The notes below the pieces were generated by a model. It saw only the letters and a program-made list of their open reading frames with translations. It was not told the DNA's origin and did not search any database. Position numbers and translations under genes: made by a program. A stretch of DNA of 10,417 bases from Candidatus Fermentibacterales bacterium. GTDB lineage: Bacteria > Fermentibacterota > Fermentibacteria > Fermentibacterales > JAFGKQ01. Each line of letters begins with the position of its first letter. Positions within the stretch are counted from its first letter, which is position 1. Location: positions 1 through 10,417 of the forward strand of contig JAFGKQ010000266.1 in the NCBI GenBank assembly GCA_016928495.1, written 5' to 3'. This document shows positions 802 to 9,153 of the stretch, piece after piece.

Positions 802-2730
802 ATGGCAGACAATCGCCCCCAAGGCCCTGACGGGCGCAAGCCGCCCGGCGAGCCCCCTCCTCCAGTGAGGTACGGGTGCTCCATGCGCACCCTGTCCCTG
901 TGGATACTGCTGGGGCTCCTCACCGTGACGATCTTCTCCATCTTCGGCGGCGACAGGGGATCGGTCGAGATAACCTACTCGGAGCTTCTGGCCTTCGTCG
1001 GCAACGGACAGGTGCAGAAGGTCGCAATCGAAACCGGTGGCGCCATCAGCGGGGACTTCGTGGTTCCGCAGACCGTCGAGGGCGCCAGCTACGAGAGGTT
1101 CAGCAGCTTCATCCCGCTCGAGAGCACGGCTGTCATCGACTCGCTGAGCGCCCACGGGGTCGCGATAGAGGGACGACCCGAGAGCCTGGACTTCCTGCAA
1201 ATCCTGTTCAGCGTCGGCCCGATACTGCTGCTCGTAGCCTTCTGGATCTTCATCATGAGGAATGCAGGAGGGGGCAACAGGGCGTTCTCGTTCGGCAAGA
1301 GCAGGGCCAGGCTGTTCACCTCGGACAGGCCGAAGGTGACCTTCGACGACGTTGCGGGGGCCGACGAGGCCAAGGAGGAGCTCGAGGAGGTCATCGAGTT
1401 CCTGAAAGAGCCCAAGAAGTTCAGCAGGCTGGGTGGCAAGGTGCCGAAGGGGGTCCTGCTGCTGGGCCCGCCCGGCACGGGCAAGACGCTTCTGGCCAGG
1501 GCCGTCGCGGGCGAGGCCGAGGTCCCCTTCTTCTCCATGAGCGGCTCGGATTTCGTGGAGATGTTCGTCGGGGTGGGAGCCTCCAGGGTGAGGGACCTGT
1601 TCAGCCAGGGCAAGGCCAAGGCCCCCTGCATCATCTTCATCGACGAGATCGACGCTGTCGGCAGGCACAGGGGATCGGGCCTCGGGGGTGGTCACGACGA
1701 GCGGGAGCAGACGCTCAACGCCCTGCTCGTGGAGATGGACGGGTTCGAGCCCAACGAGGGCGTGATAGTCATGGCGGCCACCAACAGGCCGGATGTGCTC
1801 GATCCCGCTCTTCTCCGGCCTGGCAGGTTCGACAGGCGGATCATGGTCAACATGCCCGATGTCAGGGGGCGTGAGGCCATACTGAAGATCCACACCCGGA
1901 GGATGCCCCTTTCCGACGACGTCGATCTCGGCAGGATCGCGCGCTCCACACCGGGGTTCAACGGAGCGGATCTGGAGAATCTCGCGAACGAAGCCGCGCT
2001 AAGGGCCGCAAGGCGCCGGTCGAACGTGATCGAGCCGGAGGATTTCGACGCGGCGACCGACCGCATAGTCATGGGCATCGAGAGGCGCAGTCTGGTGATA
2101 AGCGACGAAGAGAAGAAACTGACTGCGGTTCACGAGAGCGGTCACGCTCTGGTGGCCATGTTCACCCCGGGGTCCGATCCCGTCCACAAGGTCACGATAG
2201 TGCCGCGGGGCAGGTCCCTCGGGGCGACCAGCTTCCTGCCGATGGACGACAGGCACAACTACTCGCTCGAGTACTGCATGGGGGTCCTGGCAAGGCTGAT
2301 GGGCGGCAGGGCTTCGGAGTCCTTCTACCTGAACACGCTCAGCACCGGGGCGGGGGACGATCTCGAGAAGGCGACCGAGCTGGCCAGGAGGATGGTCTGC
2401 GAGTGGGGCATGAGCTCCGCGCTGGGATCCGTGACCCTGGGCGAGTCCGGGGAGCCGATCTTCCTGGGAAGAGACATGGGCAGGATCAGGAACTACTCCG
2501 AGAGCACGGCAGAGATCATCGACTCGGAGATCCGTCGCCTGGTCGACCAGGCCTACGAGAGCGCCTTGGGCATACTGAAATCGAGAGTGAACATCCTGGA
2601 GGCTATGATGGAACAGCTCCTGGTGAACGAAACCCTGACCAGCGAGCAGATCCATGAGCTGGTCAGGAAGCTCGAACAGCCGGAGGCGGACGAAGGTGCT
2701 GCCGAAGGACAGGCGGAAGGCCCGGATTGA
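802..2730 (+). CDS. ftsH: ATP-dependent zinc metalloprotease FtsH
   Basis: Membrane-anchored AAA+ protease that extracts and degrades membrane and short-lived cytosolic proteins as a hexamer. Its 642 residues match the family length. Domain order: Pro-rich cytoplasmic tail (1-25), TM1 (about 29-48), an external domain (about 49-130), TM2 (about 131-151), AAA+ module with Walker A GPPGTGKT (222-229), pore motif MFVGVGAS (254-261), Walker B IIFIDEID (277-284) and arginine-finger region RPGRFDR (339-345), then an M41 peptidase domain with zinc motif HESGH (444-448, where HEAGH is commoner) and the likely third ligand Asp at 519-520 in TGAGDD. The C-terminus (after about 625) is acidic and low-complexity. 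The ATG at 802 is preceded by AGGGAG at 782-787, a rather long spacing; a start at ATG 883 would remove the tail but has no clear Shine-Dalgarno site. It ends 1 nt before folE. Confidence 0.98.
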
Positions 2731-2731
2731 G

Positions 2732-3301
2732 ATGGACCTCGACAGGATAAGAGACGGCGTCAGGATGATCCTCGAGGGCCTCGGAGAGGACCCCGGCAGG
2801 GATGGTCTCAGGGAGACACCTGAACGCGTTGCCAGGGCCTATGCCGAGATCTGCAGGGGACTGGAGCCTGGCTGCATGAAGCCCATAAGGACCCTCGAGA
2901 CTGCGAACCAGGACGAGCTCATCATCGTTAAGGACATCAGCTTCTCGTCCATTTGCGAGCATCATCTGCTACCCTACATAGGAAGATGCGATGTGGTCTA
3001 CATACCGTCGAACGACCGCATTGCAGGGCTGAGCGCGATAGTCGAGACGGTCGAGCTGATGGCTGCCAGACCGACCATACAGGAGCGCCTGACGACGGAG
3101 ATCGCCGACCGGCTCATGGCGGAGATCAACGCCAAGGGCGTGCTGGTCGTGATGGAGGCCGAGCACATGTGCCTGGCGATGAGGGGCGTGAGGAAGAGGG
3201 ACTCCAGGATCGTGACCTCTGCGATGCGGGGCTTTCTTCGAAGGCACGAGACCAGATCCGAGGCGCTGTCGCTGATCGGCAGGACCATACCGTCGAGATG
3301 A
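2732..3301 (+). CDS. folE: GTP cyclohydrolase I (variant lacking two phosphate-binding basic residues)
   Basis: FolE opens the guanine ring of GTP to make 7,8-dihydroneopterin triphosphate, the first step of tetrahydrofolate synthesis. The 189-residue protein has the family core: ETPERVARAY (28-37), zinc site SICEHHLLP (Cys75, His77/His78), GLS (99-101), QERLT with the guanine-binding Glu (QE 117-118), EAEHMC (His145, Cys147 as the other zinc ligand) and the C-terminal TSAMRGFLRR. Arg151 corresponds to E. coli Arg185. Unusually, the segment after GLS reads AIVETVELMAARP where E. coli has KINRIVQFFAQRP. The equivalents of Lys136 and Arg139, which bind the triphosphate, are therefore Ala and Glu. 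The frame is open further upstream inside ftsH, but ATG 2732, one base past the ftsH stop, gives the normal family N-terminus. The gene overlaps folP by 4 bp. Catalytic competence or substrate may differ, yet folP next door argues for a folate role. Confidence 0.93.
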   Translation: MDLDRIRDGVRMILEGLGEDPGRDGLRETPERVARAYAEICRGLEPGCMKPIRTLETANQDELIIVKDISFSSICEHHLLPYIGRCDVVYIPSNDRIAGLSAIVETVELMAARPTIQERLTTEIADRLMAEINAKGVLVVMEAEHMCLAMRGVRKRDSRIVTSAMRGFLRRHETRSEALSLIGRTIPSR

Positions 3302-6951: not shown

Positions 6952-6968
6952 GCTCGGGTGAGCTCGGG
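6949..6968 (+). repeat. Tandem 10-bp duplication at the stop codon and element edge
   Basis: TGAGCTCGGG occurs twice back to back (6949-6958 and 6959-6968). The first copy contains the stop codon of the DUF4097-type gene; the second runs into the first three bases of the inverted-repeat element. It may be a scar of insertion or slippage. It is not matched on the right side of the element, so it is not an ordinary target-site duplication. Confidence 0.8.
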
Positions 6969-7127
6969 GACGTAGTTAAAGAAACTTAAGAAACTTGCCC
7001 TATTATCCTCTAGATACCTTCAATAACGGATTGCTAGCAGGAGTGTCACAAGAACCCTATTGCCCTATTAAGGGCACATAATCCCTTTAATAAGCCAAGT
7101 TTCTTAAGTTTCTTTAACTACGTCCCC
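6966..7127. mobile_element. MITE/REP-like inverted-repeat element, copy 1
   Basis: A 162-bp non-coding, AT-rich element with perfect 32-bp terminal inverted arms at 6966-6997 and 7096-7127. Each arm starts GGGGACGTAGTTA and then carries AAGAAACTT twice in tandem. The arms are identical to those of the second element at 9006-9153. The 98-bp interior has a small hairpin and encodes nothing. The element lies between two convergent genes: 14 bp after one stop and 10 bp before the other. As RNA on either strand it would form a very long stem, so it may serve as a bidirectional terminator or an RNase III target. No target-site duplication and no transposase are visible, which favours a non-autonomous element mobilised in trans; a RAYT-type (Y1 transposase) REP is one candidate, by inference only. 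Confidence 0.82.
7061..7076. other. Inner hairpin of element copy 1
   Basis: TGCCCT-ATTA-AGGGCA forms a perfect 6-bp stem with a 4-nt loop inside the element interior. It has no sequence counterpart in copy 2, which has a different small hairpin in its interior. Confidence 0.6.
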
Positions 7128-7137
7128 AGTTCCCCGG

Positions 7138-7896
7138 CTACAGCCCGATGTAGTTCCCGACCCGGATGTAGGGGCCCGAGAAATCGACCGTGAACCCCTC
7201 GGCTTCTTCGTCATCGATCTCCACCGGGCAGTACCTGTAGCCTGCCTCCACTCCCAGCAGGATAGGAATGCAGCCCAGTAGCCTGTGTGTCCGTTCCTGG
7301 TCGAGCCTCAGGGCTCCCAGAACACCGAATGACGAGCCTCCTCCCTTCACGCCGGTATCGGGTGATCGCAGCTCTCTGCTGATGCTGTTGTAGGTGGGGC
7401 CGGCCCCGAGGTAGAACCCGACGGCGTCGCTTCCACCGAGCCGGTAGAACCCGGTAGCCTCGACCGATATGCACATGTCGCTCATGTCGATTACATCAGT
7501 CGATGGCGGACCGAAGAGGAAAGCGAGTCCACCCGTGAAGAGGCCCAACCAGATGTACTCCCAACTGGCGGATGCCTCCTGATAGGCCCCGGATACGGTA
7601 TTCATGGTCAGCCCGAGCCGTCCCCGGAAGCGATCCGAGATGTTCCCGAGCACCTCGATGTCGAAGCCCCATGCCGGGTAGTCCAGATCGTAGCCCACGC
7701 CGGCCTGCATGAACTCCTCCTCCAGGGCTTCCTCGTCCGCCATGTCCACGAAGCTCACGCCCATCCCCATACCGAGCCGGAAGCTGGCCGGCGGCTCCTG
7801 CTCCTCGGAGGCGGCCGGCTTCCGGGAGTCCAGCTGCAGGCCCGCGAAGGTCTGCCCTGTGAGCAGCAGGACTACCGGGAGCAACCCCGCGATCAT
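7138..7896 (-). CDS. Predicted outer-membrane beta-barrel protein, unknown function
   Basis: A 252-residue protein with a likely Sec signal peptide (residues 1-18, hydrophobic GLLPVVLLL, cleavage after TFA). After an acidic/Pro linker (about 20-38) come alternating, Gly- and aromatic-rich strands: SFRLGMGMGVSFVDM, RFRGRLGLTMNTVSGAY, AVGFYLGAGPTYNS, SSFGVLGALRL, LLGVEAGYRY and a last strand GPYIRVGNYIGL. This is the look of small outer-membrane barrel proteins; a hydrophobic stretch WLGLFTGGLAFLFGP (116-130) is also present. I recognise no specific family. Its ATG overlaps the stop of the upstream lipoprotein gene (ATGA on the minus strand), so the two are probably co-translated and may work together. 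It converges with the DUF4097-type gene across the inverted-repeat element. Confidence 0.78.
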   Translation of the reverse strand: MIAGLLPVVLLLTGQTFAGLQLDSRKPAASEEQEPPASFRLGMGMGVSFVDMADEEALEEEFMQAGVGYDLDYPAWGFDIEVLGNISDRFRGRLGLTMNTVSGAYQEASASWEYIWLGLFTGGLAFLFGPPSTDVIDMSDMCISVEATGFYRLGGSDAVGFYLGAGPTYNSISRELRSPDTGVKGGGSSFGVLGALRLDQERTHRLLGCIPILLGVEAGYRYCPVEIDDEEAEGFTVDFSGPYIRVGNYIGL

Positions 7897-8243
7897 CGGG
7901 ACACCTCGAACAGGGACGTCAGGATCTTGTCCCCATCGAGGTAGACCCTGATGAAGTAGAGCCCGTTCTCGATGACCTGTTGGTCATCGTCGAGCAGGTC
8001 CCAGTACACGCTGTGGTCGCCCTGGTCCTGAGTCTCGTTCTCGATCAGCCATCTGACCTGGACGAGGTAGGAGTTCACCGCGGTAACGGACACCAGGCCG
8101 GAGTCCGGCAGAACGTAATAGAAATCGAAAGGACCGGAGACCTGCTGAAAAGGGTAGGTCGCGTCTTCGCACGCGAGGATCAGGAGGCTGAGGGTAGCTG
8201 CAAGAGCCAGCCTTCCCCAGGTGGCAGGAACAGAGCGGATCAT
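7893..8243 (-). CDS. Small lipoprotein with FlgD-like C-terminal segment
   Basis: A 116-residue protein. The N-terminus MIRSVPATWGRLALAATLSLLILAC is a classic lipoprotein signal with lipobox I-L-A-C25, followed by Glu-Asp. The mature part ends in YWDLLDDDQQVIENGLYFIRV (80-100) and DGDKILTSLFEVSR. This resembles the end of FlgD-like or fibronectin-like Ig domains ('WD..D..G..V..G.YF.R...DG'), a fold common in cell-surface proteins. The start is well supported: AAAGGAGG lies a few bases upstream on the minus strand (plus-strand CCTCCTTT, 8250-8257). Its stop overlaps the start of the beta-barrel gene, so it is the first gene of a two-gene unit read leftward from the divergent promoter region. 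A role anchoring or assisting the barrel protein is inference only. Confidence 0.78.
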   Translation of the reverse strand: MIRSVPATWGRLALAATLSLLILACEDATYPFQQVSGPFDFYYVLPDSGLVSVTAVNSYLVQVRWLIENETQDQGDHSVYWDLLDDDQQVIENGLYFIRVYLDGDKILTSLFEVSR

Positions 8244-8282
8244 GTGCCCCCTCCTTTCCGTCTGTTTTGCGGAGCCCCATTG

Positions 8283-8290
8283 GTTATAGT
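8283..8290. promoter_or_regulatory. Possible overlapping divergent -10 boxes
   Basis: The 97-bp gap between divergent genes contains GTTATAGT. It reads TATAGT on the plus strand (8285-8290) and TATAAC on the minus strand (8283-8288), so it could be a shared -10 core for both directions. No convincing -35 box at normal spacing is seen on either strand, so this is weak. Leaders would be roughly 30-45 nt. Confidence 0.3.
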
Positions 8291-8340
8291 CCTACGATGT
8301 GGGGAGGCTTCCGGCAAGCCTGGAGCACGGAGGGGAAGGA

Positions 8341-9015
8341 ATGAGAGAGCATCCGTATGTACTGGCTCTGGTTGCTGGTGCAGGACTTCTGGCAGTTCTA
8401 GTCTCGGGTTGCAGAACCCCATTGTTCGTGGATCCCAGTCCCGGCAGTCTCCTTCCCAAAGGGGGAGTCGAGATACGGCCGGGGTTCTCCTGCATTCAGT
8501 ACGAGAACGGCGACGACTCTGGCACGGAGACCCGCAACTACGGAATCAGCGCGGCTTTCGGAACGGCCAGAGTGCCCTTGATCGGCTGCAGAGCGCAAGC
8601 TGCTCTACGATTCGAGTTTGCGGACCATGACAATCCCGAGATCGAGGACTGGTTCTACCTCGGATGGCAGGGCCACTTCGGAATCTCGCAGTGGGTGAGC
8701 CTGAGTCTGAGCAGTACCGCGAACTGGAGAGAAAACTCGTTCGACTGCAATCTCCTTGACCTCGGGTTGCACGGGACAATCCCCCTCGCGGACGTTGCGA
8801 GGCTCAATCTGAGTGGCAGGGTCATTCCCCATGAGAGGGACATGGGGGACTCGGAGGATCCGGCGGTGCTGTTTGCCATCAATGGCTCGGTGTCGCTCAG
8901 CTCGGATCACGACAGGTGGGCAGTCACCCCTGCGGTAGCGTACCTGATCGATCCGGATGAGCATTTCAACAGGCTGGCCTGGGCCCTGTTCTTCTCGATC
9001 AAGTCGGGGACGTAG
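8341..9015 (+). CDS. Predicted outer-membrane-associated lipoprotein, unknown function
   Basis: A 224-residue protein with signal MREHPYVLALVAGAGLLAVLVSGC, lipobox V-S-G-C24. The rest has alternating polar/hydrophobic strands with many aromatics (DWFYLGWQGHFGIS, WVSLSLSSTANW, ALFFSIK) and no recognised domain, suggesting a beta-rich envelope protein. The ATG at 8341 was chosen over a GTG at 8299 because it sits right after GGAGGGGAAGGA (8329-8340) and begins the signal peptide exactly. The stop codon (TAG 9013-9015) and the final residues Gly-Thr are encoded by the left arm of the second inverted-repeat element. The native end was therefore probably replaced, perhaps after ..FFSIK. It diverges from the lipoprotein/barrel pair and converges with the FAD oxidoreductase gene. 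Confidence 0.78.
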   Translation: MREHPYVLALVAGAGLLAVLVSGCRTPLFVDPSPGSLLPKGGVEIRPGFSCIQYENGDDSGTETRNYGISAAFGTARVPLIGCRAQAALRFEFADHDNPEIEDWFYLGWQGHFGISQWVSLSLSSTANWRENSFDCNLLDLGLHGTIPLADVARLNLSGRVIPHERDMGDSEDPAVLFAINGSVSLSSDHDRWAVTPAVAYLIDPDEHFNRLAWALFFSIKSGT

Positions 9016-9153
9016 TTAAAGAAACTTAAGAAACTTGTCCCATTATCCTCCCTCTGACGTGAGGGGGGTACTAAAAGGAACAACTGAGGCGCTATAAGCG
9101 CAACGACTCACATTAAATGGGCAAGTTTCTTAAGTTTCTTTAACTACGTCCCC
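9006..9153. mobile_element. MITE/REP-like inverted-repeat element, copy 2
   Basis: A 148-bp element whose 32-bp arms (9006-9037 and 9122-9153) are identical to those of copy 1. The complementarity extends two bases outward (9004-9155), and inward after one bulged T by CCCATT/AATGGG (9039-9044 with 9116-9121). The first 13 interior bases resemble copy 1 (11 of 13, ending ATTATCCTC), so both copies point the same way; the rest of the interior is unrelated. The left arm supplies the TAG stop of the upstream lipoprotein gene, and the right arm ends 3 bp before the stop of the convergent FAD gene. No target-site duplication is seen (flanks ATCAAGTC and GAACTACC). A bidirectional terminator role is plausible. 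Confidence 0.85.
9089..9101. other. Inner hairpin of element copy 2
   Basis: GCGCT-ATA-AGCGC is a perfect 5-bp stem with a 3-nt loop in the interior of copy 2. It differs in sequence from the inner hairpin of copy 1. Confidence 0.55.

Follow-up and report, generated by a model that had tools for sequence, protein, structure and literature searches.

TIRtrons, units built around a TIR-associated tyrosine transposase (TIRYT), were described by Di Nocera et al. 2013 (PMC3733652); a GGGGWSAS foot is stated for some or most of their TIRs, not all. According to Quentin et al. 2018 (PMC6006769), the TIRYTs probably correspond to subclass 2.1 of the TnpA-Y1 transposases, the second largest class (14.9%, Table 1 of that paper) and also Bertels group 1; REP-like sequences were not found near subclass 2.1 genes in that study, and the link to TIRs needed confirmation. 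REPINs have conserved ends and a less conserved spacer with a preferred length (Bertels and Rainey 2011, PMC3116915).

The 10.4 kb stretch of DNA analysed here (the window; contig C28 of a 2.31 Mb assembly in 337 contigs, 81% complete) holds two short inverted-repeat elements, which are very probably miniature, non-autonomous TIR doublets, the equivalent of REPINs, belonging to a Y1/HUH TIRtron on another contig of the same genome (C225:1050-2310). The kind of element is already known and poorly characterised; what this case adds is that full-length and miniature copies have exactly matching arms, that a single genome contains two enzyme/arm pairs and that the transposase tail matches DnaA domain IV by structure.

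Arms and interiors of the doublets

One perfect 32-mer, GGGGACGTAGTTAAAGAAACTTAAGAAACTTG, makes up all four arms in the window as two inverted pairs (Table 1), and sequence comparison upheld the original prediction that they are identical without a mismatch. The likeness of about 13 bp that it had reported after the left arm appears as 96% identity over 47 nt (6964-7010 vs 9004-9050); the remaining interiors are unrelated, that of doublet 1 resembling the others only in a subterminal G[GT]CNN[AT]TTA-like stretch adjoining each arm. Convergent genes end 3-14 bp beyond each doublet or within the arm itself (at 14 bp and 10 bp for doublet 1) and, as had also been claimed, no target duplication was seen around either window element. 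The 148-nt doublet folds 12 SD better than dinucleotide shuffles (z -12.3), and a single arm alone gives no significant hairpin (z -1.15 vs shuffles). Taken as structured RNA, only the doublet 2 interior folds clearly better than its shuffles (z -3.4 on the plus strand, -2.1 on the minus strand), and an Rfam scan of the window gave no match.

Table 1. The two TIR doublets of the window and their parts (positions count from the first base of the window)
Feature	Position	Strand	Description
Doublet 1, TIR doublet read as non-autonomous	6966..7127		162 bp; perfect 32-bp inverted arms; between convergent genes
Doublet 1 left arm	6966..6997	+	32-mer
Doublet 1 right arm	7096..7127	-	32-mer, reverse complement
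Doublet 1 interior	6998..7095		98 bp; not significantly structured
Doublet 2, TIR doublet read as non-autonomous	9006..9153		148 bp, the family's commonest size; between convergent genes
Doublet 2 left arm	9006..9037	+	32-mer; provides the TAG stop codon of gene 8299-9015
Doublet 2 right arm	9122..9153	-	32-mer, reverse complement
Doublet 2 interior	9038..9121		84 bp; two internal hairpins

A search of the whole genome, as the prediction had proposed, carried the arm beyond these two loci: the exact 32-mer occurs nine times in 2.31 Mb against zero for a reversed control pattern, and 20 arms lie within 3 mismatches of the 31-mer. The nine exact copies against none for the control, together with the 12 SD folding of the doublet, exclude a chance origin of the arms, and an assembly artefact is unlikely because four contigs with different flanks carry exact copies. 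No arm within 3 mismatches was found in a set of 59 further genomes, of which 41 belong to the same order and none to the same family. Viral contigs likewise contained no 31-mer, and GGGGACGTAGT occurs across the order, outside its own genome, at chance-level counts only.

The family defined by this arm (family A) includes six short inverted doublets, namely the two in the window and those on C138 (148 bp), C133 (206 bp), C125 (149 bp) and C316 (148 bp), whose arms are the exact 32-mer or carry 1-3 changes; four of the six have a total length of 148-149 bp with an interior of 84-85 bp. The remaining arms comprise the C225 pair, two widely spaced arms on C49 and four solo arms, and more diverged relatives and decayed arms are also present in the genome. 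Positions 1-32 are conserved, and conservation extends through G[GT]CNN[AT]TTA up to about position 40, where it ends. A C stands before the foot in 18 of 24 cases, where 31% would be expected (P ~1.5e-5); this may mark the cut site or reflect a target preference. Interiors past position 41 are not significantly similar to one another or to the full-length copy's ends, and readings of them as deletion derivatives of that copy, or as copies of each other, were rejected.

Other arrangements of the arm were also observed. On C49, inverted arms at 1649-1680 and 2987-3018, separated by 1.37 kb, both have G in place of C at position 20, a change present in no other arm, and they surround an outer-membrane-like gene (1960-2619, minus strand), as though a host gene had been trapped between them. 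C255 carries a 42-bp stretch twice (2006-2047 vs 3072-3113, 1.07 kb apart, one mismatch), consisting of 31 bp of a gene's 3' end and the first 11 bp of the arm, after which the arms continue differently; this looks like flanking host DNA carried with the arm, or like recombination inside the foot. At C55:4855-5087, copies of a related arm, AGGGACGTAGTTRAAGCRATTCAACTTGCTCG, follow one another every 71 bp as far as the contig end.

The full-length copy and a second enzyme/arm pair

The original prediction had noted that no transposase lies nearby, which is true within the 10.4-kb contig, but an enzyme with the same arms is encoded on C225, and the proposed search for a Y1/RAYT transposase between such arms was thus successful. 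Two PF01797 proteins were found in the genome, of which this one is bounded perfectly on both sides by the window 32-mer. The full-length element spans 1261 bp, with inverted arms at 1050-1081 and 2279-2310 that are identical at 32 of 32 positions and a single gene between them (1130-2209, 359 uninterrupted codons); upstream, the gene at 120-1073 runs into the arm, which supplies its C-terminus (last residues EGDVVKET). Judged by its sequence, the gene inside the arms is an intact Y1 (HUH) transposase. Its protein matches Pfam Y1_Tnp (E 8.6e-8) and NCBIfam REP_Tyr_transpos (E 2.2e-14, 53.6 bits, which is below the model's cut-off of 80), contains the motifs NHVH, LFQN and YIHLNP, and in an alignment of 15 proteins N59-H60-x-H62 and Y119..N123-P124 are invariant. 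The C-terminus matches Pfam HTH_23 weakly by sequence (E 0.15), and phmmer of the transposase against PDB sequences gave no match. In an AlphaFold2 model (mean pLDDT 80.9), residues 1-191 match E. coli TnpA-REP (4er8, Z 13.1) and residues 255-345 match DnaA domain IV (1j1v, Z 12.6, rmsd 2.6 over 91 residues). Because the modelled protein joins a TnpA-REP-like N-terminus to a DnaA domain IV-like C-terminus, we assign it to TnpA-Y1 subclass 2.1 (TIRYT) and call the unit a TIRtron; its motifs (NHVH, FQ, YIHLNP), length and DnaA-like tail are those of subclass 2.1 (motif definitions from PMC6006769, Table 1).

Just one further Y1 gene was found in the genome (C90, 238 aa); it encodes a second TIRYT and is bounded by a different, perfect 24-bp inverted arm, TTATGGGGACACATCACTTATCTC; the arm of this second family (family B) is GGGGACACATCACTTATCTC. 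The GGGG-starting 20-mer of the C90 arm has 36 copies within three mismatches, and the family comprises 12 short inverted pairs of 59-153 bp as well as the pair around the C90 gene. It would be difficult to account for two enzymes, two arms and two doublet populations if enzyme and arm did not belong together. Bases immediately outside the GGGG foot are conserved at both ends in family B (RTTAT, AATAA, GATAA), unlike family A, in which it is mainly a single C that stands before the foot, and the two families may differ in cut position. A third repeat family was also observed, with the foot GGGGACACGCACTATTT and 20 copies within 2 mismatches on C145, C255, C321, C234, C281 and other contigs; on C145, C255 and C321 its repeat forms the right end and the GGGGACGTAGT arm the left end, so that the two ends differ. 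A transposase with the third-family arm was not found in the 81% complete assembly.

Beyond this pair, we compared 27 class-2 (Y...NP) Y1 genes from the genome itself, its order, and genomes labelled Nitrospirae, Deltaproteobacteria and Chitinivibrionales, among others. Inverted repeats scoring above 30 shuffles flank 22 of the 27, and most of these repeats start with GGG(G)AC or GGG(G)TC; among the longest is a perfect 32-bp arm in a Nitrospirae MAG (TTTGGGGACGTTGTTTCATACGTTGCATAACT), which has one further copy besides those flanking its gene. Five other species of the order carry a related arm in 3 to 21 copies, in one species repeatedly as 65-bp pairs. Six IS200-type (Y...Q) genes of the order gave only 9-17-bp matches, about the shuffle maximum, without the foot.

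Proposed mechanism and alternative explanations

We infer that the C225 enzyme mobilises the doublets; the genome itself showed neither movement nor an empty site or excision event. In the proposed mechanism the transposase would recognise only the arm (its GGGGAC foot and inner portion, together with the subterminal G[GT]CNN[AT]TTA), so that any DNA between two inverted arms could move. During lagging-strand synthesis the two arms of the single-stranded element would pair as a 32-bp stem, and the paired arms would be cut and rejoined via the catalytic tyrosine without target duplication, by analogy with the single-strand tyrosine cleavage at folded ends in IS608/ISDra2 and TnpA-REP. Arm identity would be kept since copies with damaged arms stop spreading, interiors would drift freely within a length limit, and copies would survive where they are least harmful, in the short gaps between convergent gene ends. 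If the arms alone are read, two solo arms ending up close and inverted would suffice to create a doublet; that the short interiors are neither homologous nor deletions of the full-length copy counts against the model, which leaves doublet formation unexplained. Further points against it are the NCBIfam score below the curated cut-off and the failure of Quentin et al. 2018 to find REP-like sequences close to subclass 2.1 genes. The DnaA-like tail may be the part that recognises the arm. DnaA-like domains normally bind double-stranded boxes, which does not easily fit a purely single-strand mechanism. In a more tentative reading, the domain would grip the arm in double-stranded form, and cutting of the folded single strand would fall to the HUH domain.

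The same repeats could in principle be immobile and retained by the host to act, at convergent gene ends, as terminators in both directions or as hairpins that stabilise mRNA, with selection or gene conversion holding the arms identical. Six of seven doublets are indeed flanked by convergent genes, an arrangement shown by 18 of 77 gene pairs (~23%) on the same contigs (binomial P ~0.001, from simple ORF calling and small numbers; for C133 and C316 convergence was judged from translations), long RNA hairpins are predicted, and REP elements favour sites between convergent and unidirectional genes (PMC3733652). However, selection against gene disruption gives the same position bias, the arms end in CCCC without a U-run, no function common to the neighbouring genes was seen, the transposase gene is bounded by the same arms, and solo and decayed arms are present, as spread and decay predict; we therefore regard this reading as unlikely.

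Strong conservation of the arms, with everything between them variable, would also be expected of a host chromosomal motif (protein-binding or matS/parS-like) whose presence at the Y1 gene is coincidental, yet the second Y1 gene of the genome has a different, equally dispersed arm, related transposases elsewhere have flanking arms of their own, and absence from 41 same-order genomes is unlike a host function, all of which makes such a motif very improbable. Hardly credible at all is that the doublets are ordinary MITEs derived from an insertion sequence of DDE type whose inverted ends are 32 bp long: they are indeed short, lack coding capacity and have perfect terminal inverted repeats, but target duplication is missing at both window elements, a Y1 HUH enzyme is the only transposase found between these arms, and the interiors are not derived from the full-length element.

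Relation to described systems

We classify the elements as TIR doublets belonging to a TIRtron whose transposase is of subclass 2.1; they are REPIN-like in their working. The original prediction of non-autonomous elements moved by a Y1/RAYT-type enzyme gains support from the Y1 gene between the same arms, but the arms are not canonical GTAG-foot REPs; they are TIRs of the TIRtron/TIRYT kind because a single arm forms no significant hairpin and the transposase has a DnaA domain IV-like tail. Shared with TIRtrons are a Y1 transposase that carries the motifs NHVH, FQ and YIHLNP and has a DnaA/HTH domain at its C-terminus, long flanking inverted repeats with a GGGG foot, and dispersed TIRs occurring as dimers. 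The published majority foot is GGGG[AT][CG]A[CG], which the family A foot GGGGACGT fits at 6 of 8 positions, departing at positions 7 and 8, and the family B foot GGGGACAC fits fully; a further difference is that here the full-length copy and several miniature ones share identical 32-bp arms. A literature search on the GGGGACG foot returned unrelated papers only.

With REPINs the doublets have in common two conserved inverted arms, a variable spacer of preferred length and a related transposase, by which mobilisation is presumed. They fall outside the REPIN definition, since their arm is no GTAG-foot hairpin: a REPIN arm holds a palindromic REP with a GTAG/GTGG foot, whereas the arm here is longer and alone forms no significant hairpin, and the transposase belongs to another subclass. 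The canonical REP/RAYT system (REPtron; E. coli TnpA-REP, 4er8) has the same HUH/Y1 catalytic fold, and GTAG does occur at arm positions 7-10, but not at a hairpin foot; a DnaA-like domain is added and the arms are terminal inverted repeats. IS200/IS605 elements (IS608, ISDra2) likewise share the Y1 HUH transposase fold, but they have a Y...Q tyrosine motif and subterminal hairpins instead of long inverted ends, and the six such genes in relatives lack such arms.

The identical arms and the two enzyme/arm pairs provide exact oligonucleotide substrates together with a built-in control for cross-specificity. It is possible, though we suggest it only tentatively, that DnaA-tailed Y1 enzymes of subclass 2.1 drive REPIN-like replicating populations in many phyla, each enzyme with its own arm, with a shared GGG(G)[A/T]C foot and with a spacer that matters by its length only. 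If true, arm populations of subclass 2.1 enzymes in many phyla would correct the view that these enzymes have no associated mobile repeats.
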